A stretch of DNA of 64,000 nucleotides from Bacillota bacterium (lineage in GTDB: Bacteria > Bacillota > Sulfobacillia > Sulfobacillales > JAIMBI01): positions 22,927 through 86,926 of the forward strand of contig JAJZWS010000005.1 in NCBI GenBank assembly GCA_021846565.1. Direction: 5' to 3'. Positions 8,552 to 52,557 of the stretch are shown piece by piece (the stretch's first letter is position 1; every line of letters starts with the position of its first letter). Made by a program: the position numbers and the translations under genes. The notes beneath the pieces were generated by a model. It did no database searches and was not told the DNA's origin. It saw nothing but the letters and a program-made list of their open reading frames with translations.

Positions 8552-8580
8552 TTGACACGCAGGGTCGCGCAGGGTAGCAT
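8552..8580 (+). promoter_or_regulatory. sigma-A-like promoter for Ehr cluster 1 leader
   Basis: TTGACA-N17-TAGCAT. Confidence 0.75.
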
Positions 8581-8597
8581 GCCAACGCAACCAATAC

Positions 8598-8660
8598 GGC
8601 GATGGAGACCGCCGGGGCTACGCCCGAACTGCCAGAGCATCTGGCTAATGACTCCTACCG
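8598..8660 (+). ncRNA. fluoride riboswitch aptamer (crcB motif)
   Basis: GGCGATGGAGACCGCC...CGAACTGCCAGAGCATCTGGCTAATGACTCCTACCG: P1 GGCG/CGCC, P3 GCCAGA/TCTGGC, pseudoknot GGAG/CTCC, conserved UAAUGACUCCUAC. Confidence 0.9.
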
Positions 8661-8697
8661 TGCACGTGACGTTGACGTGGCGGTAGGGGTATTTTTT
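8651..8697 (+). terminator. riboswitch expression-platform terminator
   Basis: ACTCCTACCG/CGGTAGGGGT stem plus inner CACGT/ACGTG, followed by ATTTTTT; 5' arm overlaps the aptamer 3' element. Confidence 0.85.
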
Positions 8698-8723
8698 GTG
8701 CCGAAGCGGGAGAGGAGTTGCAC

Positions 8724-9656
8724 ATGCCAATCGTGGCACAGGGGCTGCAAGTGTTGTTTGTTCTGGCATTCGCGCCACTTTTAAAGGGCATCATGGATCG
8801 GGTGAAGGCTCGCGGCATGCGGCGACAAGGCCCTCCGTGGGTTCAGCCCTATCGGAATCTGTGGAAGTGGGCTCACAAGTCCATCGTGCGCACCCCATAC
8901 ACCACGGGCCTCGCGGACTGGGTTCCCGTGTTATATTTCACGGCGCCCCTGATAGTGACTCTGTTAATCCCGGTGTTGACCACCATGCCGCTGCCGCTCG
9001 CGTTTATGGCGGACATTTTGGGCGGCGGACTCATTTTGGCCGGAGCCGGCTTTCTGCTGTTGTTCTACGCCCTGGACTCGGGCAGCGCCTACGCGGCCAT
9101 TGGGGTGAGCCGCATCCGGCTCATCGGCACCCTGGGGGAACCACTGACGGTGATGGCCGTGTTCACGGCCGCCGCCGTGGGACACTCGACGATTCCCTAC
9201 ACGGTCAATCAGGCGTTCTTCGCCCAAAGTTTCTTCGCCCCGGTGCACCTGTTGGTGCTCCTGGCCTGGTTGCTGCTGCTGCTGGCCGAGGCCGGCCGCC
9301 TACCGGTGGACAACCCCGATTCGTCCCAGGAGCTGTCGCTCATCGACCCCAACCGGGTGTTTGAAGCCAGCGGCCCGGATCTGGCGCTGCTGGAGTGGGG
9401 CGGGTGGATGAAGTACACCGTGCTGTCCATCATTCTGGTGAACGTGTTGGGCTGGCCCGTGGGATTGGCGGCGATGCTGACGCCCGGCGCGCTGGCGCTG
9501 GCGATTCTGACGACGGCCGCCAAGCTGGTGGTGGTGGGGCTCGTGGTGGTGGGCATTGAGCTGTCTTTCGCCAAGCTCCGGCTGATGCGCATTGCGGAGT
9601 ACCTGACGCTCTCGGTGGCCTTGGCCGCGCTGGCGGCCTTGGCCGCCGGGCTCTAG
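8724..9656 (+). CDS. HyfC/HycD/NuoH-like membrane subunit (Ehr cluster 1)
   Basis: LAEAGRLPVDNPDSSQELSLIDPNRVFEASGPDLALLEWGGWMK; RBS AGAGGAG before ATG. Confidence 0.85.
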   Translation: MPIVAQGLQVLFVLAFAPLLKGIMDRVKARGMRRQGPPWVQPYRNLWKWAHKSIVRTPYTTGLADWVPVLYFTAPLIVTLLIPVLTTMPLPLAFMADILGGGLILAGAGFLLLFYALDSGSAYAAIGVSRIRLIGTLGEPLTVMAVFTAAAVGHSTIPYTVNQAFFAQSFFAPVHLLVLLAWLLLLLAEAGRLPVDNPDSSQELSLIDPNRVFEASGPDLALLEWGGWMKYTVLSIILVNVLGWPVGLAAMLTPGALALAILTTAAKLVVVGLVVVGIELSFAKLRLMRIAEYLTLSVALAALAALAAGL

Positions 9657-9708: not shown

Positions 9709-10329
9709 ATGCCGGTGTGGTTGGTGCATCCCACGCTGATGGCCGAAGCGGGGGCGGCGGTGGTGTGGCTCGCGGCGAATCTCATTGCGCTGGCCCGCCG
9801 GCCCGCCACGGCCATCAGTTGGTATGCGATCGCGGGACTGGTCGAGGGGGGGCTGGCCGTGTTATGGGGGCTGGCCCACCACCAGGCCGCCTGGTGGAGC
9901 ATGGGGATTTTGTGGATGGCCGCCAAGGGCGTCGTGGTGCCGCGGTGGCTGTTGGCGGCGCTGCCGCCGGACCGGTGGGAACTGGTCGCGTCCGGCACCC
10001 CGCGCCTGCTGCTGGGCAGCGCGGTGCTGGTGGTGGTGACCGTGGCCGCCGGAGGATCGGCGGGGGTGGCGGTGGCGGCGCTGTTGACCCCGTTTTGGCT
10101 TTTGACCCAGCGGCGCGAGCTGTGGGTGGCCGCCATCCTGCTGATGGAGGCGGAAGTGGCGCTCGGCTTTGTCGCGCTGGGCGCGCACGTCGCACCGGCG
10201 ACGGTCGATGTCCTGGACGTGGCCGAGGTCCTGTGGGCCGGGGCCCTGCTGGCGTGGCTGCTGCGGCGGGGCCGGCTGGATTGGGATGAGCCGATTCACA
10301 CGACGGCGCTTCGGCGTCTGAGGGGGTAG
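9709..10329 (+). CDS. HyfE-like small membrane subunit (Ehr cluster 1)
   Basis: hydrophobic ORF in the HyfE position between HyfC- and HyfF-like genes; WMAAKGVVVPRWL resembles HyfE K-V-I-P segment. Confidence 0.65.
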   Translation: MPVWLVHPTLMAEAGAAVVWLAANLIALARRPATAISWYAIAGLVEGGLAVLWGLAHHQAAWWSMGILWMAAKGVVVPRWLLAALPPDRWELVASGTPRLLLGSAVLVVVTVAAGGSAGVAVAALLTPFWLLTQRRELWVAAILLMEAEVALGFVALGAHVAPATVDVLDVAEVLWAGALLAWLLRRGRLDWDEPIHTTALRRLRG

Positions 10330-10334
10330 GCGAC

Positions 10335-11663
10335 GTGGCGGTATGGGTTCCCATCGCATGGGTGATCGGGATGGGAGCATTGGCGTCCGGGCGGGGCCGC
10401 TGGCCACTGGTGGCGGCCGCCGGCACGGCCTTGGCGGCGGCACTGGACGTGTCGCGCGCGCTGGCGCACCCGGCCTGGACGGCCGAATATGGGGCGTTGG
10501 TCCTGGTGCTGGCCACCTTTGCGCTCATCATGTCGCCCGCCTATTTCCTGGGGGCAGCGGTTCACCACCCGTGGCCCGCGGCCCGCGAGCGCTGGTACTA
10601 CGCTTGGCTCGGGGTGTTTGCGGCGGCGCTCCTGGCGCTGGCGGCGCCGTGGCCGCTGGTGGATCTGTGGGTGGCCGTGGAAGCCACGACGCTGTCATCG
10701 GTGCTGCTGGTGGCCCTGCCCCCCGGCGCCGGGCCGTTTGAGGCTTCGTGGAAGTACGTGACGCTGGCCATGCTGGGCGGACTGCTGGCGTTGGGCGGCA
10801 TCCTGCTGATGCAAAGTGGCGCGGCGGCCGACGTGGCCGTGGGGGCGCTGTTGATGCTGGTGGGCTTTGGGATCAAGGCGGGCTTGGTGCCGTTCCACAC
10901 CTGGCTGCCGGACGCGCATGCCGAGGCGCCCGCCCCGGTGTCGGGCCTGCTGTCAGGGGCCGAGCTGGGGGGGATTCTTATCGTGGCGTGGCGCGGACTC
11001 ACGCTGGCTCAGGGGCTCCTGCACCAGCACTGGCCACTTCTGGCGCTTTTGGCGCTGGGGCTCCTGTCCCTGCTGGTGGGGGTGGCTTTGATATCTCGCC
11101 AGCACAATCTGAAGCGTCTGTTGGCGTACTCGTCCGTCGAGCACATGGGGGTCATTGCGGTGGGGCTGGCTTTTGGGGGGCCGGCTCTCTTAGGGGCGTT
11201 TCTGCACGTGTTTACCCACGGGTTGGCCAAAAGCCAGGCGTTTTATCTCTCCGGGTCGGTGCAGGCGCACTACGGGACCGTGGACACGCGGCACATTCAC
11301 GGCCTGGGCCGCCGACTCCCGTGGACGGCCGGGGGTCTCATGGTGGCCATCGGAGCTCTGGCCGGCCTGCCGCCGCTGGGGCCGTTTTGGAGTGAGTGGC
11401 TGGTCATTCAGGGAGGGTTGGCGGACAAGGGGATGGCGGTGTGGGCGGCTCTGACGGCGCTGCTGCTGGCTGGCGGCTTCGTGGCGCTCATGTACCGGCT
11501 GCCGCGGCTCTGGCAGGGCTCTCGGCCTCCGGTGCCCCCCGAGGGGGCGGGGCCGCCGGAGTCCAAATTCCTTTCCCTGCCTGTACTGTTGATGTCCAGC
11601 CTCACGATGTCGGCCGGGGTGGTCGTGCCCTGGGTGTTCCTGGGGTTGGGACGGGGGGTGTAG
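10335..11663 (+). CDS. HyfF/NuoM-N-like antiporter-type subunit (Ehr cluster 1)
   Basis: GFGIKAGLVPFHTWLPDAHAEAPAPVSGLLSG, LLAYSSVEHMGV, FTHGLAKSQAFYLSGS. Confidence 0.85.
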   Translation: MAVWVPIAWVIGMGALASGRGRWPLVAAAGTALAAALDVSRALAHPAWTAEYGALVLVLATFALIMSPAYFLGAAVHHPWPAARERWYYAWLGVFAAALLALAAPWPLVDLWVAVEATTLSSVLLVALPPGAGPFEASWKYVTLAMLGGLLALGGILLMQSGAAADVAVGALLMLVGFGIKAGLVPFHTWLPDAHAEAPAPVSGLLSGAELGGILIVAWRGLTLAQGLLHQHWPLLALLALGLLSLLVGVALISRQHNLKRLLAYSSVEHMGVIAVGLAFGGPALLGAFLHVFTHGLAKSQAFYLSGSVQAHYGTVDTRHIHGLGRRLPWTAGGLMVAIGALAGLPPLGPFWSEWLVIQGGLADKGMAVWAALTALLLAGGFVALMYRLPRLWQGSRPPVPPEGAGPPESKFLSLPVLLMSSLTMSAGVVVPWVFLGLGRGV

Positions 11664-11664
11664 C

Positions 11665-13047
11665 ATGGCCGACCGCATGATCGTGGGAATTCCGGAGTCG
11701 CACGCAACCGATCCGCTGTCCGATGCGCTGGGACAGATGGCGCGCGACGGCGCCGCCCTGCTGCACGCGTTCCTGAGCGCGCGCGGGCTCACGTTGGTCA
11801 TCGCACCGGCAGCCCGGGGCGCGCCGGAGGAGATGGTCCTGGGGCCCGGTCCGTTCTCGCGGCCCACTCGCGCGGGCCATCAGCTGTTTTGGGGGATCGA
11901 GCACACGCTGCCCCCGATCGTGTGGCATCATGCCAGCCGGCGGCGCCCCGTACGGGGGCGGGGACTGCACCTCATGCCGCTCGGCCCGGTGCGCGGTGAC
12001 GTGTCCGAGTCGCTCGCGTACCAGCTGGTGGTGCTGGGCGACGAGATTCACCAGGTGCGGCTGCGTGCCGGGTACAAGCGGCGGCACGTGGCCGAGGCCA
12101 TGACGGGGGCGGATGTGTCGGCCGCCCTCCAGGTGGCCGAGCGGGTGACGGGGACCTCGCGGGTCGCGCACGCCCTGGCGTTTTCCCTGGCGGTGGAACA
12201 GGCGCTGGGCATCGGGGTGTCTGCCGCCGACCAAGAGGCCCGGGTGGTGCTGGCCGAGTTGGAGCGCATCACGAGCCACGTAGGGGATCTGGCGCTGTTG
12301 GCGGCGTCGACGGGCACCGTGGCGGCCGCTGCCGACTGGTTTCGCCTCAAAGAGACCCTGCTCAGGTTTCAGGCGGCGCTCACCGGGCACCGGTATCTCA
12401 TGGGGGTGGTGGGGCCGGGTGGGCACCGCCGGCCGCTGTCCCGCGAGCTGTCGGCGCTGCCCGCGCTGCTGGCCGCGGTCCGGGCGCAGGTGGACGCCGT
12501 CGCCAGTGCGCTGGACGTCACCAACAGCTATCTGGATCGGCTGCACGGTGCGGGCCGCCTGCCCGAATCCCCGGACGGCGGGGTGTACTGGACGGGGTTT
12601 GTGGGCAAAAGTGCCGGACTCATGCGGGACACGCGCTGGGATGCCCCGTATGCCGCGTATGGGGCCCTCACGGCCGGTCTGGCGCCCGTGTCCGTCAATC
12701 GGCCCGATGCTTACGGCCGCGCCTGGGTGCGTCTGGGCGAGGTGCGCCAGAGCTTGCAGATGCTGTCGCGGGTGATGGATTTTAGGTCTCCGGTCGAGAC
12801 CGCGGCGCCCCCCGAGAGGCAGGGTGGCGACCGGGGGGTGGGCTACGGGATGGTGGAGGCGCCCCGCGGCCGCCTGTGCTACCGCCTAGCGGTGCACGCG
12901 GGGCGCGTTCGCGCGGCGTCGCTCACCACGCCGTCCCAACTCAACTGGCCCGCGGTGCCGCTGGCGTTGGAGCAGCGAAACATCCTGCAGGATTTTCCCA
13001 TCATTGACGCGAGCTTCTCCCTGGCTGTGTCCGCGTTGGACTTGTAG
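11665..13047 (+). CDS. HyfG/NuoD-like large subunit lacking Ni-Fe cysteines (Ehr cluster 1)
   Basis: LMPLGPVRGDVSESLAYQL, AERVTGTSRVAHALAF, LERITSHVGDLALLA; terminal IIDASFSLAVSALDL; only one Cys in the protein. Confidence 0.8.
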   Translation: MADRMIVGIPESHATDPLSDALGQMARDGAALLHAFLSARGLTLVIAPAARGAPEEMVLGPGPFSRPTRAGHQLFWGIEHTLPPIVWHHASRRRPVRGRGLHLMPLGPVRGDVSESLAYQLVVLGDEIHQVRLRAGYKRRHVAEAMTGADVSAALQVAERVTGTSRVAHALAFSLAVEQALGIGVSAADQEARVVLAELERITSHVGDLALLAASTGTVAAAADWFRLKETLLRFQAALTGHRYLMGVVGPGGHRRPLSRELSALPALLAAVRAQVDAVASALDVTNSYLDRLHGAGRLPESPDGGVYWTGFVGKSAGLMRDTRWDAPYAAYGALTAGLAPVSVNRPDAYGRAWVRLGEVRQSLQMLSRVMDFRSPVETAAPPERQGGDRGVGYGMVEAPRGRLCYRLAVHAGRVRAASLTTPSQLNWPAVPLALEQRNILQDFPIIDASFSLAVSALDL

Positions 13048-13102: not shown

Positions 13103-13639
13103 ATGTTTTATCGACGATGGCTTATGCACTATCTGAAGCGGCCGGTGGTGACCAGCTTTCCGGGTCAAGTCGACCCGGCCGCTCCCGCGCGCGCCCCGCT
13201 GGAGCCAGCCGCCCATCCGCTGTTTCGCCAATCGCTCACCCTGCGTCAGGTGGATGGGGGGTCGTGCAACGGCTGCGAGGCGGAGATCCAGCTGCTGGCG
13301 AGCCCGGTCTACGATCTGTCGCGCTTTGGCTTCGCGCTCTCTCCGTCGCCCCGCCATGCGGACCTGCTGCTCGTGACCGGCGTCATCACCGAGGCGATGG
13401 TGCCCGTCATCCGCACCGCCTACGACGCCATGCCTGAACCCCGCCTGGTGGTGGCGGTGGGCGCGTGTGCCACCGAGGACGGCGGCGGGTTTCACGGCAT
13501 GCCGGGGGTGGTGGGGCGGCTGGACGGGGTGGTCCCCGTGGCCGTGCGCATTCCCGGATGCCCACCCAGCCCCAACGACCTCCTGGCGGGACTGCTGGCA
13601 GCGGTCGGGCGCCCCGCACGCACCGCGGAGGCCCGCTGA
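13103..13639 (+). CDS. HyfI/NuoB-like small subunit (Ehr cluster 1)
   Basis: GGSCNGCEAEI, VGACATEDGG, PGCPPSPNDLLAGLL. Confidence 0.85.
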   Translation: MFYRRWLMHYLKRPVVTSFPGQVDPAAPARAPLEPAAHPLFRQSLTLRQVDGGSCNGCEAEIQLLASPVYDLSRFGFALSPSPRHADLLLVTGVITEAMVPVIRTAYDAMPEPRLVVAVGACATEDGGGFHGMPGVVGRLDGVVPVAVRIPGCPPSPNDLLAGLLAAVGRPARTAEAR

Positions 13640-15624
13640 TGCTCGCGGCCGCGCTCTTGGTGCTGCTGACCGCGATTGCCGCCGGGCTCGGCCTGCTGCA
13701 CGCGGGTCGGCCTCGGTCGCGCGCCGGGGCGCGCCTGGCGGTTGGCACCTGGTTCGCGCTGGCCATGGCGGGCGCGGTAGGGCTAATTTGGCGCAGTGGC
13801 ACGCTGCGTCTGGTCACGCCGGTGGGGTCGGTGGGATGGCACGTGGATCCGTGGGTGGCTGGCTGGCTCATGGTCGTGGGGCTGATGGGCGGTTTCGCCG
13901 TGAGTGCGCGGGCCGCGGCCGGGGCGGTGCCGGGAGAAATGATCGCGGTCAGCTGGCTGGCGGTGGGCGTGGCCGGCATCTTAACTGCTGCCGATGCCCT
14001 GACCCTGGTGCTGGCATGGGGTCTTTTGACCGCGTCCGCCTATGGGGCGGTGGTGGCCGGGGCGCACCGGGCACGGGTGCTGGCCGCGGGCTGGGTGCTC
14101 CTGGTGATGAATGAGCTGGGCACCGCCGCGCTCATCGTCGGCGCCATCCTGCTGACAACCCAAGTTGCGGTCGGCCCGGTGGCGGACGTCGCCGCGCTGT
14201 TGGGTCTGTTGGGCCTAGGTGCGAAGACGGGGCTGTTCCCCTTTCAGGTATGGCTGCCGGTGGCGGAACCCGAGGCGCCTGGGGTGGTGGCCGGTGTGTT
14301 GTCCGGGGTGACCACGGCGGTGGTGATGGTGGCACTGGGTCAGTGGTACGGCTGGACGCATCCGGACCTGACCGTGGGCTGGATCACGGTGGGGCTCGGG
14401 GTGGTGGGCGGCGCCCTGGGGGCGGTTCACGCGGCCCTGGACCATGACTTGAAGCGGGTGTTGGCGTACTCCACCGTCGAGTGGATGGGACTCGCCACCG
14501 CGCTGCTGGGCCTCTCCGTCGTCTTTCTCCGCACCGGTGCCCCCGCCCCCGCGGGTGTGGCGCTGGCCGCGTTTTATGCCGTGGCCCTCATGCATCTAGG
14601 CGCCAAGACGGCGGCCTTTGGCATTGCCGGGTGGGTAGAGCAGGCGGGCGCGGGGCGGCGGCTGGATGCCTTGGGAGGGCTGTATCGCCGAGCCGGGTGG
14701 CTCGCGCGGTGGGCGCTTTTGGCCGTGATTGCCCTGATGGCGCTGCCGCCCACCGGAGGGTATTTGGCGGAGTGGCTATCCCTGGAATCCGTCTTCATGG
14801 AAAGCGCCGGGCCGCTTAAGCCGCCGCTTCTGGTCGTGGGCATCCTGCTGGCGCTTTTGGCCGCCACGGGCGCCACCGCCATGCTGCGCTGGTATGGCGC
14901 CGTATTTCTGGGGCCTCCGCGCGGCCGCAAGCTGCCGCGCCGTCCCGACGCGGGGTCCGTCCGCCTGGTGGGGGCCGGTGCGGTGCTGGCCGCCGTGGCG
15001 GGTGTGGGGGTCGGGTGGTGGCTGCCATTTGCGGCGCGCTGGGCGCCCCCGCTCGTGGGTCAGCCCGTGCTGCGGCACCTGGTGGCCCGGACGTTTGGTG
15101 CGCATCCGGCCCCGGCGCTGCTGGTATCCCTGGGCGGGCGCGTGTTTGCCGGGCTGCCTGGCGCGCCGGGCGCCATCGTGTTTCCGGGTCCGGGATTCAC
15201 GGCCATCGCCCCTTGGTATCTGCTGTGGTTCGGCGGTGCGATGGTGCTCGGCGTGGCGTGGGCGCGCCGCGCGTGGATGCGGCGGCACCAACTGACCGTA
15301 CGCCGGGAGGCGCCTTGGTCCGGCGGGTCCCACTATCGGCGGGAACACGCGTGGACCGCCACCGCGCTGACGCACCCCTTGCGGCTGGCCTTTGCCCCCG
15401 TGATTCGTCTCACGCGCCGCCGGCAGGAGGGGGCGGTGGTGCGTGTGGACACGGACATCGCCGATCGCCTGCTGGAGCAGGGGATGCGGCCCGTGCAGCG
15501 ATGGGTCGGGCGCATAGCCGATGCGCTCGCCCAAACCGAGTCGGGGCTGGTGAGCCACTATGTCTTGTATGTGCTGGCGGCTCTTGCGGTGGGGCTTTTG
15601 GCGCTCGGCCTCCACGCCGGCTGA
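13639..15624 (+). CDS. HyfB/NuoL-like antiporter-type subunit (Ehr cluster 1)
   Basis: GLGAKTGLFPFQVWLPVAEPEAPGVVAGVLSG, VLAYSTVEWMGL; long hydrophilic C-terminus; start overlaps upstream stop. Confidence 0.85.
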   Translation: MLAAALLVLLTAIAAGLGLLHAGRPRSRAGARLAVGTWFALAMAGAVGLIWRSGTLRLVTPVGSVGWHVDPWVAGWLMVVGLMGGFAVSARAAAGAVPGEMIAVSWLAVGVAGILTAADALTLVLAWGLLTASAYGAVVAGAHRARVLAAGWVLLVMNELGTAALIVGAILLTTQVAVGPVADVAALLGLLGLGAKTGLFPFQVWLPVAEPEAPGVVAGVLSGVTTAVVMVALGQWYGWTHPDLTVGWITVGLGVVGGALGAVHAALDHDLKRVLAYSTVEWMGLATALLGLSVVFLRTGAPAPAGVALAAFYAVALMHLGAKTAAFGIAGWVEQAGAGRRLDALGGLYRRAGWLARWALLAVIALMALPPTGGYLAEWLSLESVFMESAGPLKPPLLVVGILLALLAATGATAMLRWYGAVFLGPPRGRKLPRRPDAGSVRLVGAGAVLAAVAGVGVGWWLPFAARWAPPLVGQPVLRHLVARTFGAHPAPALLVSLGGRVFAGLPGAPGAIVFPGPGFTAIAPWYLLWFGGAMVLGVAWARRAWMRRHQLTVRREAPWSGGSHYRREHAWTATALTHPLRLAFAPVIRLTRRRQEGAVVRVDTDIADRLLEQGMRPVQRWVGRIADALAQTESGLVSHYVLYVLAALAVGLLALGLHAG

Positions 15625-15903: not shown

Positions 15904-18201
15904 GTGTCACAGCGATCCATGAGCCCGGCCCAGTCATCCAACCGCATTGCTGACTCCAGGCGGTGGTGGGCGCTGGCCGCGGTGTTAATTACGATGTTTT
16001 TCTCGTCCATGGACCAGACGGCCGTGTCGACCGCCATGCCGTCCATCATCGGGCAGTTGCAGGGCCTGTCGCTGTACTCGTGGGTGTTCACGGCTTACAT
16101 GATGGCGTCGGCCGTCACCGTGCCCATCTACGGCAAGCTGTCCGACTCCTACGGCCGAAAGCCCTTTTACGTGTTTGGGCTCGTGGTGTTCATGGTGGGG
16201 TCGGCCATCTCGGGTCAAGCCTACAGCATGATGGACCTCATTATGGCCCGCGCGCTGCAGGGCATCGGGGCTGGTGCCATGCTTACTATGCCGCGCGCCA
16301 CCATCGGCGACATTTTCAACCCGCGGGAGCGCGGCCGCTGGATGGGCGTCATCGGGGCCGTGTTTGGGCTGGCGTCCATCGTCGGACCGACACTCGGGGG
16401 CTGGATCACCGACAGTTTTGGATGGCGTTGGGTGTTTTACGTCAACCTGCCCATCGCGGCAGTGGCGCTGGTGCTGGTGCTGGTAAGTCTGCCCACGGTG
16501 CGCGCAGCGCGGGCCGCGAGGGCCGACTGGCCGGGCATCGCGCTCCTGATTGTCGGGCTGCTGCCGATCCTCCTCGGGTTGACGTGGGCAGGATCTGAAT
16601 ACGCGTGGGGATCCTGGGTGGTGCTGTCGCTCTTTGGCCTGGGGGCGGTGGCGCTTGGGGCGTTTGTGCTGGTGGAGCTCCGGAGTCAGGATGCCGTGCT
16701 GGCGCCGGCGCTGTTCAAAAGCCGGACGTTTACCAGCTCGGTCGTGGTGCAGCTCCTGGTGTCGATGGCGATGTTCGGCGCCCTCATGTACCTCCCCCTG
16801 TATGCGCAGGGGGTCATTGGGCTGTCGGCGGCGGCCAGCGGCGCCATTATGACGCCCATGATGCTGGCCTTCATCGGGGCCAGCGTGGTGGCGGGACAAA
16901 TCATGACCAAGACCGGCCGCTACCGGTTGATGGCGCATGTCAGTGCCCTGGTGATGGCCGTAGGCATGTTTCTCTTGATGAGCATGACCGCGTCAACCAG
17001 CTACACGACCGCCATGCTGAACGTCGTGGTGATGGGGCTGGGCGTGGGTGGGGTGATGCCCATCCTGAATGTGGCCGTCCAAAACGCCTTTCCCTATGAG
17101 GTGATGGGCACGGTCAACGCGACGCAGCAGTTTGCGAGCTCGCTCGGCGGCGTGATTGCCGCACCGATTCTGGGCACCCTCATGACGCGCACATTTGCCG
17201 CCCGGCTGCCTGGGCTCATGCCGGTCCGCCTGACGGCGTTGCTGGCGCACCTGCCGGCGTCGGTGCGCAATGCCGTCACCAATCCGGCCAGCCTGACCAA
17301 CGCCGCCGCGCAAACGGCGCTGGGCCGAGAGTTTCGGACCCTGGGCCCGCTGGGCGGGCAGATGTATGGCAGCTTCCTGCACGCCGTGCGCGTGGCGCTG
17401 GCCGACGGCATGCACCAGCTGTTTTTAGCGGGGTTCGTGTTTGCGGTGGCGGCGCTCTTGGGCACGTTGGCTCTCCGAGAGGTTCCGCTCCGCACCAATG
17501 AGTACTTCACCGAGCCGACGGTGGCGGCGGACGAGGGACCAGACGTCGGCCGGCGGGTGGTGGTCACCCTGTCGGCCGCGTACGGCGCCGGTGGCAGTGC
17601 CGTGGGGCGGCAACTGGCCCAGGCACTGGAGTTGCCGTTTCTGGATCGCCTCATCTCCGAGGGGGCGCTGTTTGCCGACGAGGCGAGCCGCTGGCCGATG
17701 GCGGACAATCCGGCAGGCGCGCGGTGGGCGCGCCTCGCGCACCTGCTCACACTGGCCGGGGTCAATGTCCCGCTCGCGCCCGACGGCACATGGGAAGAGC
17801 AAAAGTTCCGGGCCGATACGGAAGCGGTCATGCGGGAGGCCGCCAGCGCGCGGGGGGCCGTGGTGGTGGGACGCGCGGCGGCCCTGGTGTTTGCCCGGGA
17901 CCCATCCGGCTTTCACGTGCGGCTGACGGGACCCGGGGAGGCGCGCTACGCCCGCGTGGCCAAGCGGCGGGCCGTGACCGCCGAGCAGTTTCGCGCAGTG
18001 GACCGCGCGCGCGAAGAGTATGTGCGTCACTTCTACCACGTGGATCCCACCGATCCGACGGGCTACGACCTCGTTGTCGACACCGGGAAGCTGTCGGAGG
18101 GCGAGGTGGTGGACCGCATTCGGGGCGCGCTGTCCGCCCACGCTCGCGACCCGCGCCGCACGGCACGCCCGGTGCCGCGACCCCTCACGGACCCCTGGTA
18201 G
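15904..18201 (+). CDS. MFS (DHA2/EmrB-type) transporter fused to C-terminal cytidylate-kinase-like domain
   Basis: MFS: FFSSMDQTAVSTAMPSIIGQL, YGKLSDSYGRKP, ALQGIGAGAM; from about 17557 VVVTLSAAYGAGGSAVGRQLAQALELPFLD...GAVVVGRAAALVF...YDLVVDTGKLS (Cytidylate_kin2-like). Confidence 0.85.
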   Translation: MSQRSMSPAQSSNRIADSRRWWALAAVLITMFFSSMDQTAVSTAMPSIIGQLQGLSLYSWVFTAYMMASAVTVPIYGKLSDSYGRKPFYVFGLVVFMVGSAISGQAYSMMDLIMARALQGIGAGAMLTMPRATIGDIFNPRERGRWMGVIGAVFGLASIVGPTLGGWITDSFGWRWVFYVNLPIAAVALVLVLVSLPTVRAARAARADWPGIALLIVGLLPILLGLTWAGSEYAWGSWVVLSLFGLGAVALGAFVLVELRSQDAVLAPALFKSRTFTSSVVVQLLVSMAMFGALMYLPLYAQGVIGLSAAASGAIMTPMMLAFIGASVVAGQIMTKTGRYRLMAHVSALVMAVGMFLLMSMTASTSYTTAMLNVVVMGLGVGGVMPILNVAVQNAFPYEVMGTVNATQQFASSLGGVIAAPILGTLMTRTFAARLPGLMPVRLTALLAHLPASVRNAVTNPASLTNAAAQTALGREFRTLGPLGGQMYGSFLHAVRVALADGMHQLFLAGFVFAVAALLGTLALREVPLRTNEYFTEPTVAADEGPDVGRRVVVTLSAAYGAGGSAVGRQLAQALELPFLDRLISEGALFADEASRWPMADNPAGARWARLAHLLTLAGVNVPLAPDGTWEEQKFRADTEAVMREAASARGAVVVGRAAALVFARDPSGFHVRLTGPGEARYARVAKRRAVTAEQFRAVDRAREEYVRHFYHVDPTDPTGYDLVVDTGKLSEGEVVDRIRGALSAHARDPRRTARPVPRPLTDPW

Positions 18202-39689: not shown

Positions 39690-41798
39690 TCAGGTGATGC
39701 GGATCAGCAGCATAGCGACCAAGAGCGCCACGAAGGCGTAGCCCACGTACGCGTTGACACTGCCGCGATGCATCCGCGCGAACAGGTGGGCCAGCGCTCG
39801 CGCCCCACGGATGGAGGGATCCACGATGAGGCGGTCCACCACATAGCGCGAGCGATCTTCGCGCTGGACGCTGACCCGAAAGTGCTCGGCCACCACCTCC
39901 TCGCGATCCACCGTCTGTCCGGGGCTCAGCACGGCGCGAAACACCACCCAAATGGGGCGGGCCACGCCGGTGGCCGTGTAGGTGAGGCCCGCATCCACCG
40001 TGCGGGCACCACCGAGCCAGGGCCGTCCCCGGCGCACCCGCCCGTGACCCAAAAGCCTGGCCAGGGCAAACGCCAAGGCGAGCGCGATGCCGATGGCAAG
40101 GGCCAGATAGGTGGGCGACATCGCAAACACGACGCCCGCGTGCAGGCGGGTGCTGGGATGCATGAACACCACACCGGGCGCCGGCAGCACGTGCTGCCCG
40201 AGGGCCGCCCCCAGGGGATAGAACGCGGACGCGAGCGCGGGCGGGAGTGTGGCCGGCTGAAAGAACGTGGGGATGAAGGCCGCAAGGTCATGGCTCTGGG
40301 CCAGACTGGCCGCTACCCGAGCCAATCCGGTCGCCACGTACGTGGGGGCAATGCCTAAGCCCAGTGCCAGCGCCGCCAACAATCCCATGGCGATCCGCTG
40401 AGTGGCCGTCACGTCCCGGGCCTGCGCGGCGTGGTCGGATCGGTGCCGTCCCAGAAACGTCATGCCGTAGAATCGAATGAAAGCCGTGGCGGCCAGGCCC
40501 GCCGTCAAAGCCACGGTGACGCCGGCCAGCGCGAACGCTGTCTCCAGGGCCGGGTTGGCCATGGCGACGCTGCGCAGGAGGCTCTGCAGCAGCAGCCATT
40601 CACTGGCAAACCCGTTAAACGGGGGAATGGCCGCGATGGCCATCGTGCCCGCCAACAGAAACACCCCGGTCCACTTGAGCCGTCGCGCCAGTCCTCCGAG
40701 ATGGTCCATGTTAAGTTCGTCGGTCGCCTGGTCGATGGCGCCGGCACCCAAAAAGAGCAGGGTTTTGTACACCGAGTGATTCAGCAGCTGATACAGGGCC
40801 GCGATCCACGCCAGGAGGCCCAGGACCGGCAGGCCCACCCCATCGAACGTCATGGCGGCCCCAATCCCGATGGTGACCAGGCCCATGTTCTCGATCGAGC
40901 TATGAGCCAACAGGCGCTTGATGTGCGTGTCGGTGGCCGCATACAGAATCCCCAAAAACGCGGTCACAACGCCAATGCCCAGCACGATCACGCCGGCGGC
41001 CGGGCTTGGCGGCGGCAATAGCAGCACGTTGGTCAGAATGATGCCGTACAAACCCAGATTGAGGATAGCCCCCGACAAGACGGCCGACGCATGGGCCGGA
41101 GCGGCGGGATGGGCGCGGGGCAGCCAGCTCATCGCGGGAAACAGGCCCGCCTTGACGCCAAAGCCCAGGAACGAGAGGCCGAAGACGGCCCAGCGCACGC
41201 CGACCGTCAGCCGGTCGGGCCCCGCGGCCGCAATCGCGGAAAACCCGATGTTGTGGGCGGCCAGCACCAAAGGCAGCCATGCGGCCAGCACCATGAGGAA
41301 GCCCAGTTCACTGGCGCCCAGCATGGCGTAGGCGGCCCGGGGATTTTCGGGCGTCTCGTGGTCAAACACCACCGTGATGTACGACAGCACCGACATCAGC
41401 TCCCAGGCAATGAGAAAGGTGACGACATCGCCGGCCAACAGAATCAGCGCAATGGAACCAAGCAGGAGAGCCAGCGTGATGCCGAGCGGCCGCTGGTCGT
41501 ATCGGTCCTGGTATCGGGCCAGGTAGCCCGGGGAAAAGAGATAGACGGCCAGGAACACGACCGCCGTCACCATCAGCAGGAATCCGCCCAGGTCCGTGAA
41601 GGTAAGCCGCAGCATGCCCCAACCGGCGAGCGGCCACAGCAGCCACTCTTGTCCGGGATGCGTGAGAACGGTCCCGGCCAGCGCGAGCAGCGCCAGCGCC
41701 TGGGCCACCCCCGCCGGTGCGGTCCACCGACCGCGCCGGGAGAGCCCGGCCGCCGCCGCCACCAGGGTGAGCCCGAAAAACAACGGCAGCGCGATCAT
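39690..41798 (-). CDS. HyfB/NuoL-like antiporter-type subunit (Ehr cluster 2)
   Basis: GFGVKAGLFPAMSWLPRAHPAAPAHASAVLSGAILN, LLAHSSIENMGLV, NHSVYKTLLFLGAGAI. Confidence 0.88.
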   Translation of the reverse strand: MIALPLFFGLTLVAAAAGLSRRGRWTAPAGVAQALALLALAGTVLTHPGQEWLLWPLAGWGMLRLTFTDLGGFLLMVTAVVFLAVYLFSPGYLARYQDRYDQRPLGITLALLLGSIALILLAGDVVTFLIAWELMSVLSYITVVFDHETPENPRAAYAMLGASELGFLMVLAAWLPLVLAAHNIGFSAIAAAGPDRLTVGVRWAVFGLSFLGFGVKAGLFPAMSWLPRAHPAAPAHASAVLSGAILNLGLYGIILTNVLLLPPPSPAAGVIVLGIGVVTAFLGILYAATDTHIKRLLAHSSIENMGLVTIGIGAAMTFDGVGLPVLGLLAWIAALYQLLNHSVYKTLLFLGAGAIDQATDELNMDHLGGLARRLKWTGVFLLAGTMAIAAIPPFNGFASEWLLLQSLLRSVAMANPALETAFALAGVTVALTAGLAATAFIRFYGMTFLGRHRSDHAAQARDVTATQRIAMGLLAALALGLGIAPTYVATGLARVAASLAQSHDLAAFIPTFFQPATLPPALASAFYPLGAALGQHVLPAPGVVFMHPSTRLHAGVVFAMSPTYLALAIGIALALAFALARLLGHGRVRRGRPWLGGARTVDAGLTYTATGVARPIWVVFRAVLSPGQTVDREEVVAEHFRVSVQREDRSRYVVDRLIVDPSIRGARALAHLFARMHRGSVNAYVGYAFVALLVAMLLIRIT

Positions 41799-42508
41799 GA
41801 CTCAGCCACCTCCCGGGTTTCCCGGCTCAAGCCCGTGACCAGCTCCAGCGCATGCAGGATCGCCAGCGGCGGCGGGGGACACCCCGGGACGGTCACGTCC
41901 ACCGGCACCACGCGACTGGCGCCGCCCATCACCGCAAAGCTGTCGGCAAACAAGCCGCCGTTCAGCGCGCACACGCCGACGGCCACCACCCGCTTGGGGT
42001 CGGGCATCGCCGCGTACGTCTCCTCCAGCGCTACGCGCATGCCGACGGTTACGGGCCCCACAACCAAGAGGACGTCGGCATCACGAGGAGTTGGGGAGAC
42101 GTAGATGCCATAACGGTGCAGGCTGTAGACGGGGCCCAGCAGCTGCCGCAGTTCGCTCAGGCAGCCGCCGCAGTCGCCGGCGTCCACGATGCGCACATGG
42201 ATGGACCGCTGAAAGCGGTGAGGCAGTGGCGGCGCAGCGGCCTGAGCCCACCGGTAGTCGTTCTGCCAGTGAACCGGGGCTTTGGGAGGTTGACAGCGCA
42301 TGCAGTGGATGCAGTGGTCAAAGTCCACGGCGACGCCCGCATCGCGTCCTGCCAGTGCGCCGACCGGACAGATGTTGGCGTCGAAGCGGTCTCGCGCCGT
42401 CACGGCCGTCGTGGTGGGTCGACCCGGCGTGACCCCCGAGGGCAGTCGGACAGCCCCCGGTCGGAGTGTGCGGACACCAGTCTTGAGTCCTTCCCAGAAC
42501 CAGGGCAT
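41795..42508 (-). CDS. fused ferredoxin-like + HyfI/NuoB-like subunit (Ehr cluster 2)
   Basis: ANICPVGALAG...DFDHCIHCMRCQPP upstream of DAGDCGGCLSELRQLL...VGVCALNGG...PGCPPPPLAILHAL. Confidence 0.85.
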   Translation of the reverse strand: MPWFWEGLKTGVRTLRPGAVRLPSGVTPGRPTTTAVTARDRFDANICPVGALAGRDAGVAVDFDHCIHCMRCQPPKAPVHWQNDYRWAQAAAPPLPHRFQRSIHVRIVDAGDCGGCLSELRQLLGPVYSLHRYGIYVSPTPRDADVLLVVGPVTVGMRVALEETYAAMPDPKRVVAVGVCALNGGLFADSFAVMGGASRVVPVDVTVPGCPPPPLAILHALELVTGLSRETREVAES

Positions 42509-42560: not shown

Positions 42561-44108
42561 CTACCGATCCGCGTCGGCCACCGACAAACCCAAGGTGCTG
42601 ACGATAATGGGAAAGTCCTGAAAGGCGAAGTCGCGCACGGCGTCAGCCAGGCCGTGCCAGTTCAGAAAGGCCGGTGTCATGATGTGGCATCGGTCAACGG
42701 TTCCGGCGCTCCCGATCCGCACCCAGTACGCGAGCGCGCCCGATGGCGCCTCCACGGCGGCCAATCCCACTCCCGGGACCACCGGGACGGGAGTCTGGAC
42801 CGGGCCGGCGGGCAGGGAGGCGGCGCACCGCTGGATCAGGTCCACCGACGCCGCCACTTCCCGGCGAAACACACGGAACCGCGCGTACCCGTCGCCCTCC
42901 GACTCGATGACCGGCGTGACGGGATGCTGGTCGTACGCGGCATACGGGTGCCAGCAGCGCACGTCGGCCGGGGCCCCAGACGCTCGGCCCACCGGTCCCA
43001 CCAAACCCAGGGTGGCGGCCCGTGGGGGAGGCAGGATGCCCACCGCTTCCAGACGGTCCAAAAAGCTGTTGTCAAACGTTAGCCGATGGCAGACCGCCTG
43101 GACCGCCGCCACCGCCTCGACGCCGGCCTCGGCCAGGGCGTGGAGCGCGTCGTCTCCGGGATCCCGGGAGAGGCCACCCAGGGCCACCAGACCAAACAGG
43201 TAGCGATGCCCCAGGTACCGCGCCGACTGCTGCAGCAGGCGCTCCTCCACGGCGGCCAGGAGATTGGCGGGGACGGAGAGGCCGGTGGATTCCACGATGC
43301 CGGCGAGCGTGCCCACGTGGCTTCGCAGGCGCTCCCATTCGGCCAGCACGGTTCGGAGGGCACGCGCCCGGGGTGGGACGACGGCCGCGGCCACGGCCTC
43401 GACGGCTTGTGCGAAGGCGAGGCCATGGGCAAAGGCCTGCATGCCGTTTACGCGCTCGGCAACCAGCACCGCCCGGTTGGGCGTTTGCCGTTCCATGAGC
43501 TTCTCGAGTCCCCGGTACTTGTAAAACAGACGCACGTGCGCGTGCATGATTTCCTCGCCCACGGTCTCCAACAGGAACCGCACGGACTCCTGGGCCCCCG
43601 AAAACACGGGGCCGACCGGCATCACGAAGCGACCGGGCGCCTGCACGATGCGGGGCGGTTCGTACGGGTCCCGACCGCCGCCGTGGGCGGGAGGCTCCGG
43701 CCGCATGCGCATCGGTGCCAGACGTTCCGCCCAATCTTCATCGTGCAGGATGAAGTCGCCCAGTTGAGGGTGTCCCGCAAAATTGACGCCAAACAGGTCC
43801 TCAGCCTCCCGCTCGGCCCAGTCGGCGGCAAATACGGTGGGCGTAATGCTGGGCACGACCGCCCCGTCCATCGCGACGTCCACCAAAAGCCACCGCGCTT
43901 CAGGACCCATCCACACATACTGGAGGTGCGGCGGGGGCGACCCCGTCGGGTGTTCCACCACCAGCCCGATGAAGAGGGGATGGTTCTCTGCCATGAGCCG
44001 CCGCACCGTGTCCGGCAACGTGGCTTGGGAGGTGCTGACCATTTGCAGGGGCTCGCGGCCGGCGGGCGCGTCCGGCGCGCCCACTCTCGGCGCATCCGTG
44101 CGGTTCAT
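42561..44108 (-). CDS. HyfG/NuoCD-like large subunit lacking Ni-Fe cysteines (Ehr cluster 2)
   Basis: NuoC-like WAEREAEDLFGVNFAGHPQLGDFILHDEDW; NuoD-like MPVGPVFSGAQESVRFLLETVGEEI, AERVNGMQAFAHGLAF; terminal DFPIIVSTLGLSVADADR. Confidence 0.88.
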   Translation of the reverse strand: MNRTDAPRVGAPDAPAGREPLQMVSTSQATLPDTVRRLMAENHPLFIGLVVEHPTGSPPPHLQYVWMGPEARWLLVDVAMDGAVVPSITPTVFAADWAEREAEDLFGVNFAGHPQLGDFILHDEDWAERLAPMRMRPEPPAHGGGRDPYEPPRIVQAPGRFVMPVGPVFSGAQESVRFLLETVGEEIMHAHVRLFYKYRGLEKLMERQTPNRAVLVAERVNGMQAFAHGLAFAQAVEAVAAAVVPPRARALRTVLAEWERLRSHVGTLAGIVESTGLSVPANLLAAVEERLLQQSARYLGHRYLFGLVALGGLSRDPGDDALHALAEAGVEAVAAVQAVCHRLTFDNSFLDRLEAVGILPPPRAATLGLVGPVGRASGAPADVRCWHPYAAYDQHPVTPVIESEGDGYARFRVFRREVAASVDLIQRCAASLPAGPVQTPVPVVPGVGLAAVEAPSGALAYWVRIGSAGTVDRCHIMTPAFLNWHGLADAVRDFAFQDFPIIVSTLGLSVADADR

Positions 44109-44188: not shown

Positions 44189-45634
44189 TCAGCGCAAGGT
44201 GGCGGCGGCCATGCCCAACAAGTGATAAAGTGGCAGGGGAAGGTAGATCCCCAGCACGACCACGGGAACAATCCCCACGAGCATCGCGGCCGCTACCGAC
44301 CGGGGGAGCCGTACTGGCCCGTGCGTGGGGTGGCCAAATATCATGCCCCCCGTTCGGCGCAGAATCCCCAGAAAGGCAATGGCCAGGAACACCAGCAGCA
44401 GCGCGAGCACCAAGTAATCCTGCGCGGTGGCGGCCGCACGGAAAATCGTCAGCTCGCTGAGAAACACCGCAAACGGGGGCGCCCCCGCAATGGCCAAGGC
44501 CCCCACGAACAGGGCCGCCGCCGCCACCGGAGCGCTTCGCAAGAGACCGCGGACGTCCCCGATGGTGCGGGTGCCGGTCGCCAACAGCACACTGCCGCTG
44601 CCATAAAAGGCGAGCGACTTGGTGAGGCCGTGGGTCGTCAGTTGGTAGACGCAGGCCAGCGCCCCCAATGGCCCCAAGCCCAGACACAACAGCAGCATGC
44701 CCATGTGTTCCACCGTTGAAAAGGCAAAGAGGCGCTTGTAGTCATGCACCTGGAGCAGCAGGAAGGCCGCCGTGCCCACCGACACCAGCCCCACGACCAG
44801 AGCCCACGACTGCGGCGACAATCCCGGCACGGCCGTGAACACTGGCCAAAGCCGCAGGATAACGTACAGCACCGTGCTCACCTCGACGCCCGACAGCAAG
44901 GCGCAGACCGGGGTGGGTGCTTGGGAGTGGGCGTCCGGCAGCCAGGTGTGCATCGGCACTAGGCCCACTTTGGCACCAAAGCCAATCAGGATAAGCACAA
45001 ACGCCAGCGCCACGACCCCCGCCGGCATGTGCGGTGCCGTCCGAATCAGCGCGCTCCACGTCTGAACCGTCACGTGGTTGCGCGTCAAGCCCCACAGCAG
45101 TAGGAAAATGCCGAACGCGGCCACCGTGGCCCCCATAATCGTGATGACCGCGTACTTCCATGCGGCCTCCAACGCTTCGCGGGTGTTGGCGAAGCTCACG
45201 AGAAAGATGGACAGGACGGTCGTGAGCTCGATGGCCACCCAGGTAAGTACGGGCTGCAGCAGCAGCGGCACCACAAACAGCGACGCTTGAAAGAGATTGA
45301 GGTTAAGAAAGTACCGCCGCTGACGCGCCGGGTCCCCCGGGGCGAGGTGAGGAATGTACCCCCAGGAGTAGGCGGCCGCGGTGAGGCCCACAAAGCCCTG
45401 CAACACCAGGATCAGGGCCGCAAGCGCGTTGACGCCGATCCATCCGGGCAGCAGCACCCCGCCGACGTGGCGCGTCACGTCGCTCGCGACCGCCAGCGAC
45501 GCGGCAAACGCCAGCAGGGCGGTTGCCAACGTGCTGAGCTTCGCCACCCGGACGTTCTTCACCACCAGGCAGAGCGCGGCGGACACCAGCGGGGCGGCCG
45601 GAATCACCCCCAGCAGCATGGCCGAAAGCCTCAT
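44189..45634 (-). CDS. HyfF/NuoM-like antiporter-type subunit (Ehr cluster 2)
   Basis: GFGAKVGLVPMHTWLPDAHSQAPTPVCALLSGVEVS, LFAFSTVEHMGML, THGLTKSLAFYGSGSV. Confidence 0.88.
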   Translation of the reverse strand: MRLSAMLLGVIPAAPLVSAALCLVVKNVRVAKLSTLATALLAFAASLAVASDVTRHVGGVLLPGWIGVNALAALILVLQGFVGLTAAAYSWGYIPHLAPGDPARQRRYFLNLNLFQASLFVVPLLLQPVLTWVAIELTTVLSIFLVSFANTREALEAAWKYAVITIMGATVAAFGIFLLLWGLTRNHVTVQTWSALIRTAPHMPAGVVALAFVLILIGFGAKVGLVPMHTWLPDAHSQAPTPVCALLSGVEVSTVLYVILRLWPVFTAVPGLSPQSWALVVGLVSVGTAAFLLLQVHDYKRLFAFSTVEHMGMLLLCLGLGPLGALACVYQLTTHGLTKSLAFYGSGSVLLATGTRTIGDVRGLLRSAPVAAAALFVGALAIAGAPPFAVFLSELTIFRAAATAQDYLVLALLLVFLAIAFLGILRRTGGMIFGHPTHGPVRLPRSVAAAMLVGIVPVVVLGIYLPLPLYHLLGMAAATLR

Positions 45635-46311
45635 CGCGGCACCCCCTCGCCCAGCTGCTGCAGGCTGCTCACTTCCGTGCTGCCGAGGTGCTGCGCGATG
45701 GTGCGCGTCAGGATGGCGACCACCAGCACCACCATCACCCCTTCGAGCCCCGCGGCGGCTTCGACGATGGCCGACGAGGTGGTGATGGCCACGCCGGCAA
45801 AGAAGACGCCGTTATCTATGGCCATGAGGCTCAGCACCTGTGCCACCGCCTCGCGGCGAATGGCGAGCGTGTACACGCCAATCAGGAGCGCCGCTAATCC
45901 AAGCGGCAGGTTCACTGCCGCCCGCGCCGCAGGGGGCCCCAGCAGTGGGGCCACCAGAAAAAACGCCAACACCGTCAAGCCCAGCATGAGCAGCAGGGAC
46001 ACCGGCACGTTGACGGCCGACTCGATTTCCCGTCGGGCACGCAGCTCCTGGCCCAGGGTGCGCGTGAGGACGCCCGGAATGACAATGACTTTGGCCGCGA
46101 CGGTGATGAGGGCCACCACCGCCAGCTCGGTCGAGTGGTGCAGCAGCGCGAGCAGCACAGTCGACAGCACCAGAAGCAGCGACTGTCCCACGAACGCGCG
46201 CAGCACGGACTGAATCTGCCGAGACACCATGAGCAAGAACGTCATCAGAATAAACAGGGCGCCTACGACGGTATTTAGACTTGCCAGTGCCGCCACGTTG
46301 TTGCCTCCCAC
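45631..46311 (-). CDS. HyfE-like membrane subunit (Ehr cluster 2)
   Basis: NuoK-like multi-TM; AVVALITVAAKVIVIPGVLTRTL; AIDNGVFFAG; GTG start inferred. Confidence 0.8.
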   Translation of the reverse strand: MGGNNVAALASLNTVVGALFILMTFLLMVSRQIQSVLRAFVGQSLLLVLSTVLLALLHHSTELAVVALITVAAKVIVIPGVLTRTLGQELRARREIESAVNVPVSLLLMLGLTVLAFFLVAPLLGPPAARAAVNLPLGLAALLIGVYTLAIRREAVAQVLSLMAIDNGVFFAGVAITTSSAIVEAAAGLEGVMVVLVVAILTRTIAQHLGSTEVSSLQQLGEGVPR

Positions 46312-46395
46312 GTCGTTAAAACCTTCGCCAGCGCCACATATCGTCCGAAGACCACGGGACGGCAAAACCGGGGAGCGGACCTCAAAGCAGAGAGC

Positions 46396-47346
46396 TCAAA
46401 GATGAAACGGCTGCACCATCATGGCCAGCACCGCCACCACAAAGGCCAACCCTAAGAAATTCTCGATGCGAAACAACCGCAGCTTCGCCAGCGATGTTTC
46501 GATGCCCGCCACCACGGCGAGGAACACCACGAGCTTCAGCGAAACCAGCAGGACGCCGAGTGCCACGGCGCCAGCCGCCGGCGAGGTGGCCAGGCCCCAT
46601 GGCGTGACCAGGACGTTCAGGAGGACGAGGCTCAGCACCATCAGTTTGATGTGGCCGCCCCACTTGACCAGCGCCGCCGAGCGCCCGGAAAACTCGAGCG
46701 TTTTGGCCTCATCGATCATGGCCAGTTCAAAATGGCCGGACGGGTTGTCGACCGGGATCCGGCCCGTCTCCGCCAGGATGATCATGACGAAGGCGGCGAC
46801 AATCAGCAGATGGGTCGGCGACACCAGCGCAGCCGTTGACGTCACCCAGTGAGCCTGCACCACATATGGGATGGTGGAATTGGCCGCAAAGGACACCGAG
46901 AAAAACACGATCATGAAGATGGGCTCCACCAGCGAGCTGACCATCCGGGTTCGGCTGGTCCCCATGGGACCGTACGGATTGCCTCCGTCAATGGCGGCCA
47001 GGGTCAGAAAGAAGCCACCCAGCCCCAGGATGAAGCCGGCCGCCACCATGTCGCCCATGAACGCCCAGAACAGCGGGAAGTCCGTGAGGGCGGGAATCAG
47101 CATCGTCACCAGCAGCGGCGCCACAAAGTACATGAACGGCGCGAACCGGAAGATCCAGGTGGAATCTTCTGGGATCACCTCATCTTTGTGAAAGAGCTTG
47201 CCGAGGTCAAAGTACGGCTGCCAGATGCTGGGCCCCAATCGGCCTTGCAAGCGCTCCTCGAAGCGGTTGAGTATGCCGCGAAACAAAGGAGCGGCCGCCA
47301 GGACGAAGGCGACCTGGACAAGGTTGAGCACGAGGCCCTGGATCAT
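46396..47346 (-). CDS. HyfC/NuoH-like membrane subunit (Ehr cluster 2)
   Basis: LQGRLGPSIWQPYFDLGKLFHKDEVIPE, LAETGRIPVDNPSGHFELAMIDEAKTLEFSGRSAALVKWG. Confidence 0.9.
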   Translation of the reverse strand: MIQGLVLNLVQVAFVLAAAPLFRGILNRFEERLQGRLGPSIWQPYFDLGKLFHKDEVIPEDSTWIFRFAPFMYFVAPLLVTMLIPALTDFPLFWAFMGDMVAAGFILGLGGFFLTLAAIDGGNPYGPMGTSRTRMVSSLVEPIFMIVFFSVSFAANSTIPYVVQAHWVTSTAALVSPTHLLIVAAFVMIILAETGRIPVDNPSGHFELAMIDEAKTLEFSGRSAALVKWGGHIKLMVLSLVLLNVLVTPWGLATSPAAGAVALGVLLVSLKLVVFLAVVAGIETSLAKLRLFRIENFLGLAFVVAVLAMMVQPFHL

Positions 47347-47378: not shown

Positions 47379-47420
47379 AAAACAAAATGACCCCAGCAGC
47401 TTTAGTACTGCCAGGAGTCA
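47379..47420 (-). terminator. riboswitch expression-platform terminator
   Basis: minus strand TGACTCCTGGCAG-TACTAAAG-CTGCTGGGGTCA followed by TTTTGTTTT; 5' arm overlaps the aptamer. Confidence 0.8.
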
Positions 47421-47472
47421 TTAACCGCTGTGCGGTAATTTTGGACGATTGTCCGCGGCGGATTCCATCGCC
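47411..47472 (-). ncRNA. fluoride riboswitch aptamer (crcB motif)
   Basis: minus strand GGCGATGGAATCCGCCGCGGACAATCGTCCAAAATTACCGCACAGCGGTTAATGACTCCTGG: P1 GGCG..CGCC, hairpin GGAC/GTCC, P3 ACCGC/GCGGT, conserved UAAUGACUCCU. Confidence 0.85.
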
Positions 47473-47500
47473 GCTCAGCCTCCATATCGCGTCTCCGAAA

Positions 47501-47528
47501 AGTTTAGCACGACAGAACTCCGTGTCAA
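47501..47528 (-). promoter_or_regulatory. sigma-A-like promoter for Ehr cluster 2 leader
   Basis: minus strand TTGACA-N16-TAAACT. Confidence 0.65.

Positions 47529-50529: not shown

Positions 50530-52557
<2,028 letters not shown>

Follow-up and report, generated by a model that had tools for sequence, protein, structure and literature searches.

Fluoride appears to switch on a membrane complex that resembles a hydrogenase but has lost the active site of one. In the window, by which we mean the whole 64,000-nucleotide stretch of contig JAJZWS010000005.1 analyzed here, a fluoride-ON riboswitch acting by transcription attenuation probably controls a hydrogenase-dead energy-converting hydrogenase-related (Ehr) complex that serves fluoride tolerance. 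Strong comparative evidence supports both the regulation and the identity of the complex, and orphan Ehr complexes without known function thereby gain a directly testable role. The term "formate hydrogenlyase" has stood on fluoride-riboswitch gene lists since 2010 without good reason. In the genomes that we examined, the fluoride-regulated complex is one Ehr clade, which occurs in seven phyla and many acidophiles and travels with fluoride-resistance genes.

RNAs of the RF01734 family are fluoride sensors. The RNA ahead of the first cluster shares with this family its sequence, P1 and P3, the pseudoknot and a terminator laid over the 3' strand (Table 1). The original prediction, made from the letters alone, had proposed a crcB-motif fluoride aptamer behind a TTGACA-N17-TAGCAT promoter and had named the covariance-model score as the check on it. 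Both elements are present: the promoter is the only sigma-70-like match in 281 bp, all the proposed pairings can be traced, and the aptamer scores above the gathering threshold (E = 3e-9 when the whole window is searched with 4227 Rfam families), so that the prediction survives the check it had named. A small additional hairpin between P1 and P3, which the prediction had not mentioned, distinguishes this copy from the typical RF01734 RNA and is common in Ehr-linked copies.

The proposed sharing of the 3' element of the aptamer with a terminator, the geometry of an ON switch, is borne out by sequence and fold. The 3' strand of the pseudoknot contains the start of the hairpin, the segment 8588-8700 folds at -49.5 kcal/mol (z = -4.2), and the terminator is plain in this fold, although an automatic terminator scan missed it. 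An overlap of pseudoknot and terminator has also been argued elsewhere to make an ON switch (PMC2864571). When fluoride is absent, the 3' strand of the pseudoknot would be drawn into the terminator and transcription would halt ahead of the cluster, while fluoride with Mg2+ would stabilize the pseudoknot, block the terminator and allow read-through into the genes of a six-subunit HyfC-E-F-G-I-B complex.

An equivalent unit of riboswitch and cluster, absent from the original prediction, lies on the opposite strand at 47528-39690. Its aptamer is barely above the cut-off, and the orthologues of this aptamer in the genus score 32.4-37.2 bits. A third copy in the same genome, sub-threshold at 29.7 bits, precedes a dynamin-family GTPase gene. 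By a simple and crude scan, the terminator overlaps the pseudoknot in 33 of 50 riboswitches, versus 21 of 245 (8.6%) when the tails are shuffled; since the overlap was found in only this part of the set, some copies may use another platform.

Table 1. Features of the two riboswitch-led clusters and their neighbors in the window
Feature	Position	Strand	Remarks
Promoter 1, sigma-70 type, TTGACA-N17-TAGCAT	8552..8580	+	TTGACA 8552-8557, 17-nt spacer, TAGCAT 8575-8580; 10/12 consensus positions, 0.1 expected
Fluoride riboswitch aptamer 1 (RF01734)	8589..8664	+	45.0 bits, gathering 34
P1 of aptamer 1	8598-8601 / 8610-8613	+	GGCG / CGCC
Pseudoknot of aptamer 1	8604-8607 / 8652-8655	+	GGAG / CUCC
Additional small hairpin of aptamer 1	8615-8618 / 8622-8625	+	GGGC / GCCC
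P3 of aptamer 1	8631-8636 / 8640-8645	+	GCCAGA / UCUGGC
Intrinsic terminator 1, hairpin and T-run (expression platform)	8651..8697	+	Hairpin about 8651-8690, T6 8692-8697; 5' arm includes the pseudoknot CUCC strand
HyfC/NuoH-like, first gene of Ehr cluster 1 (type A)	8724..9656	+	PF00146, 77.5 bits; tree
HyfE-position membrane protein, cluster 1	9709..10329	+	206 aa; position and family profile
HyfF-like proton-antiporter subunit, cluster 1	10335..11663	+	PF00361, 143.7 bits; ion-path Glu/Lys conserved
HyfG/NuoD-like large subunit, cluster 1	11665..13047	+	Without NiFe ligands; one Cys in all
HyfI/NuoB-like small subunit, cluster 1	13103..13639	+	Four Cys, the proximal [4Fe-4S] ligands
HyfB-like antiporter subunit, cluster 1	13639..15624	+	TM5 Glu to Gly in its lineage
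MFS transporter fused to cytidylate-kinase-like domain	15904-18201		Just 3' of Ehr cluster 1
HyfB-like antiporter subunit, cluster 2	39690..41798	-	
HyfI-like small subunit, cluster 2	41795..42508	-	N-terminal CP...CxxCxxC cluster and four proximal-cluster Cys
HyfG-like large subunit fused to NuoC-like (30 kDa) part, cluster 2	42561..44108	-	Without NiFe ligands
HyfF-like antiporter subunit, cluster 2	44189..45634	-	
HyfE-like (NuoK/4L type), cluster 2	45631..46365	-	Start codon uncertain
HyfC/NuoH-like, first gene of Ehr cluster 2 (type B)	46396..47346	-	PF00146, 112.6 bits
Terminator 2	47387..47418	-	Overlaps the pseudoknot strand of aptamer 2
Fluoride riboswitch aptamer 2 (RF01734)	47405..47481	-	34.4 bits, gathering 34
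Promoter 2, TTGACA-N16-TAAACT	47501..47528	-	10/12 consensus, 0.1 expected
Membrane H+-pyrophosphatase	50530-52557	-	About 3 kb upstream of Ehr cluster 2; own riboswitch not found

Aptamer 1 also departs from the typical member of its family in what it heads, which is a membrane complex and no fluoride exporter. The original prediction had noticed this, placing a NuoH/HyfC-like gene and not crcB or CLC-F at the front of a six-gene cluster, and the annotation agrees: the first gene starts with ATG at 8724, the cluster extends to 15624 with Pfam matches along it, and no cluster product that was scanned matches PF02537 or PF00654. Both clusters follow the gene order HyfC, E, F, G, I, B, and NADHdh, Proton_antipo_M, Complex1_49kDa and Oxidored_q6 (the last scanned in cluster 1) are found above their Pfam cut-offs. 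Gene 2 of cluster 1 is placed by position and profile only, given that BLASTP of its product against the HyfE-position protein of cluster 2 returned no significant match; the Pfam scan found no match for it either. Both large subunits, whose sequences show a clear likeness to NuoD/HycE, have subunit 5 of the E. coli formate hydrogenlyase as their nearest solved structure.

This structural likeness agrees with what has been written about such genes. Weinberg called riboswitch-linked genes formate hydrogen lyase in 2010 (PMC2864571), as the original prediction had correctly remembered, and a 2024 review again has formate hydrogen lyase among fluoride-riboswitch genes and reads it as a shift to formate-based fermentation under fluoride (PMC11139923). 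The complex would then be a true formate hydrogenlyase, or another group 4 [NiFe] hydrogenase, and it does share core subunits with FHL-1 (PDB 7z0s), the best-matching solved structure and the enzyme that the literature names as riboswitch-linked. Unlike FHL-1, however, it lacks the NiFe ligands, a formate dehydrogenase and, in its own genome, the HypD maturase. Not one cysteine occupies any of the four NiFe-ligand columns in the 45 linked large subunits from relatives or the 65 from named loci (110/110 in two sets that overlap in organisms), and the His of the first NiFe motif is conserved in 45 of 45. Among unlinked large subunits, 18 of 19 keep Cys at three or four of these columns. An apparent NiFe motif in one linked large subunit (G037) proved to be out-of-gene sequence ahead of the start codon.

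HypD is the maturase required for building the NiFe center. It was found neither in the window's own genome nor in 30 of the 37 genomes that carry a linked cluster; a check of the draft genomes G000-G004 and G006, which are 93-97% complete, gave none. None of the cluster genes was identified as a formate dehydrogenase, and neither were the neighbors of cluster 1, which encode a signal peptidase and an MFS protein. Lacking NiFe ligands in its large subunit, the complex cannot be a formate hydrogenlyase, and with neither a [NiFe] center nor a formate dehydrogenase it would make no hydrogen. The ligand and maturase tests led us to reject this identity, to which we give next to no credence. With ligands, HypD and formate dehydrogenase all missing, the published term does not fit these complexes; judging by its genes, what the published fluoride regulon lists as "formate hydrogenlyase" is a hydrogenase-dead Ehr complex, at least in this case.

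Ehr complexes are defined by a complex-I- or hydrogenase-like set of subunits whose large subunit has no NiFe ligands (PMC4378227), and this is what both clusters encode. The 2014 Sulfobacillus genome paper that assigned such clusters to Ehr, with function unknown and fluoride unmentioned, described syntenic HyfC/E/F/G/I/B-like genes free of NiFe motifs, as in the window, and contigs of its MAGs AMDSBA1 and AMDSBA4 are among our named loci, riboswitch included (PMC4378227). In addition, we set the fluoride-linked clade apart from a second, unlinked Ehr type, which retains three of the four Cys and has the gene order B-C-E-F-G-I. Literature searches that combined fluoride with "energy-converting hydrogenase-related" found nothing, and those that combined the crcB motif or fluoride riboswitch with hydrogenase found no paper on the point. 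The riboswitch family and its "FHL" association were known; the Ehr identity, the clade-wide linkage and the lost active site appear to be new, and the Ehr identity corrects the reading repeated in the 2024 review.

The linkage is systematic among relatives. We searched 61 genomes (own, genus, family, order and class), mostly MAGs or drafts, for RF01734, CrcB, CLC and NuoH. By score, the 131 NuoH-family places divide into 61 of canonical complex I and 70 of Ehr or hydrogenase type; a fluoride riboswitch lies no more than 400 nt upstream of 49 of the latter, at gaps of 74-233 nt, versus none of the 61 canonical NuoH genes. Among the unlinked HyfC genes, 20 of 21 were examined and most belong to the second Ehr type; in two of the 20 (G043 and G052) both CxxC motifs are retained. 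The unlinked cluster of G006 sits directly behind a riboswitch-led cluster on the same strand and can therefore be served by that switch. In an IQ-TREE phylogeny of HyfC, whose deep joins are unsure owing to long branches, the linked genes fall into a single group of 50, whose only unlinked member is this G006 gene, and the riboswitch label changes twice, against a mean of 17.7 for shuffled labels. The two clusters of the window fall into the two main subclades, which we named type A and type B.

The same association reaches further than the class. A1, a profile built from the linked HyfC, gave 80 named loci in GTDB genomes of seven phyla, with loci from Sulfobacillus and relatives, from MAGs of Eremiobacterota, Planctomycetota, Acidobacteria, Gemmatimonadota, Proteobacteria and Chloroflexi, and from Alicyclobacillus, Desulfotomaculum copahuensis, Lucifera butyrica, Desulfosporosinus and Sporolactobacillus. 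Going by their names, we take many of these hosts to come from acid habitats. A covariance model built from 36 riboswitches, which has few modelled base pairs and gives rough E-values, places the RNA with a score of at least 20 bits no more than 600 nt upstream of HyfC in 70 of the 80 loci; 74 have it on the same strand when the limit is set at 2.3 kb, and for random points in the same loci the figure is 6%. On ten of these loci the Rfam model itself was run as well; it found above-threshold copies in seven, and in L182 and L195 the copy concerned is the leader of the operon, further upstream.

A further check, independent of the linked family, looked for RF01734 and A1 in 250 genomes drawn evenly from the phylum. 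Members of the clade (at least 485 bits, n = 3) were riboswitch-led in 3 of 3 cases, and other HyfC-like genes (265 bits or less) in 0 of 56; by coordinate comparison, these 56 are on contigs without a riboswitch or more than 100 kb away from one. Nor was any [NiFe] large subunit among the matches listed behind a riboswitch by the same comparison, and the absence of riboswitches ahead of HyfC genes outside the clade also argues against a formate hydrogenlyase. Across phyla, a single clade of complexes is thus associated with the riboswitch almost without exception. We reject an accidental linkage of riboswitch and cluster on the counts among relatives, the tree, the 250-genome survey and the random points.

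The other genes under this RNA class point to the same signal. In these genomes, further riboswitches head CrcB, MutS-like, DUF190, Na+/H+ exchanger, MFS and dynamin genes, and, judged by the look of the sequences, pyrophosphatase and enolase genes as well. Some of these genes share a transcription unit or a neighborhood with the complex. A Planctomycetota operon runs riboswitch - phosphoesterase - enolase - Ehr (L182 2676-5788, L191 2944-6004, L193 1005-4065; in L182 both the phosphoesterase and the enolase, and in L193 the enolase, were identified by Pfam), and one in Desulfotomaculum copahuensis runs riboswitch - dynamin - Ehr. Ehr units also adjoin CrcB pairs and MutS-like genes that have riboswitches of their own (G032 C142, G037 C55, G034 C67). 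With CrcB, MutS-like, enolase and other genes behind it, the RNA class behaves as a fluoride regulon in these genomes. One could still suppose, given that the second copy in the window is only just above the cut-off, that the aptamer is a variant for another ligand or was placed by accident. The core letters (GAUG, GGAG/CUCC) nevertheless agree with the fluoride consensus, the same class heads CrcB and enolase-, pyrophosphatase- and MutS-like genes in the same genomes, and the linkage is clade-wide, which makes such a supposition most improbable.

The Fluc/CrcB and CLC-F fluoride exporters are unrelated to the subunits of the complex, with which they have the regulator in common and, in the case of CrcB, often the neighborhood. 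CrcB was not found in any of the seven genomes of the window's family, and the two CLC proteins of the own genome are not riboswitch-led and lack GNNLI/GMGLI, the signature of fluoride-type CLC (PMC11139923). We accordingly set CLC-F aside as the missing exporter of this genome, on a check of the signature that is no proof of absence. The complex might itself export fluoride, by F-/H+ exchange or by pumping, and so replace Fluc and CLC-F where they are absent. The inside-positive potential of acidophiles draws anions in and opposes their passive exit, so that a passive Fluc channel should fare badly there (PMC12831704). Export by the complex is possible but unlikely: these subunits have no known anion path, and CrcB is present in many host genomes, often beside the cluster. 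Linked complexes are also found in genomes with CrcB, so the complex is no mere replacement for that protein. We are equally doubtful that it acts as a fluoride-dedicated ion pump and the main fluoride defense of acidophiles without Fluc and CLC-F; if it did, bacteria would have a third class of fluoride-resistance transporter.

What the subunits conserve suggests a different role. The complex has the architecture of group 4 hydrogenases and complex I and retains the antiporter Glu/Lys ion path. In HyfF of types A and B, the TM5 Glu, the TM7 and TM8 Lys and the TM12 Glu are kept almost without exception; in HyfB the TM7 Lys and TM12 Glu are kept, and six type A members, cluster 1 of the window among them, have Gly in place of the TM5 Glu. 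We assigned these helix numbers by motif, following the layout of complex I. The electron path is less uniform. All four proximal-cluster Cys of HyfI are found in 32 of 34 type A, 10 of 10 readable type B and 23 of 34 other rows; one is lost in some members and all four in three related MAGs. Type A proteins have the proximal cluster only, with one exception, and type B proteins have an added N-terminal cluster. Taken together, the residues kept in HyfF and HyfB and the losses in HyfI indicate a stronger constraint on the ion path than on the redox chain, which favors ion translocation as the conserved function; at the same time, retention of the Fe-S ligands by most HyfI proteins suggests that redox chemistry is important to the majority of members. 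In the three HyfI genes without any of the four ligands (L179 12619-13344, L181 8342-9067, L183 12646-13371), the surrounding sequence is conserved.

The complex that we propose could take two forms, a redox-driven pump or a redox-independent ion exchanger. In the first, electrons from ferredoxin or another donor would pass through HyfI to a quinone or another acceptor in the former active-site cavity, and the resulting proton pump would be induced by fluoride to restore the pmf. The complex-I-like architecture, the wide retention of the proximal Cys and the second cluster of type B fit such a pump. It is harder to reconcile with type A, which has no conserved electron-input subunit, or with the three HyfI proteins that lost all four proximal ligands and the others that lost one; losses so varied imply a redox chain broken at different points in different lineages. 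We therefore hold the redox-driven pump to be a reasonable possibility, though not the one we would expect.

HF enters acidophiles and acidifies them, which is an acute problem for these organisms, and fluoride is a known poison in bioleaching. In either form, the Ehr complex is probably a machine for fluoride tolerance through ion or pH control: it would most likely move protons or cations across the membrane and so offset the acid load and the loss of pmf that HF causes. Na+/H+ antiporters and pH control are established parts of the fluoride response (PMC11139923). The complex bears on how acidophiles survive HF, for example in bioleaching.

The survey also brought up riboswitch-led genes outside the complex. 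Dynamin-family GTPase genes stand behind the RNA at L155 5926-7695 (own genome, contig C81), L106 300-2129, L047 1-514 and L195 6019-7830. In two genomes of the family, a riboswitch-led 306-aa protein is encoded divergently from the Ehr cluster (L035 10598-11518, L038 4200-5120), and in genomes of the Sulfobacillus group the RNA leads proteins of 163-168 aa (L051 13694-14185, with similar ones in L048, L107 and L167); neither the L035 nor the L051 protein has a Pfam match. Finally, two or three fluoride riboswitches stand in tandem before some Ehr clusters (L212 7620-7950, L224 7654-7919, L210 7615-7942, L207 2119-2407). Every copy in L212 comes with its own terminator, and the second is preceded by a TTGACA box; judged from such layouts, tandem riboswitches should give a steeper or gated response.
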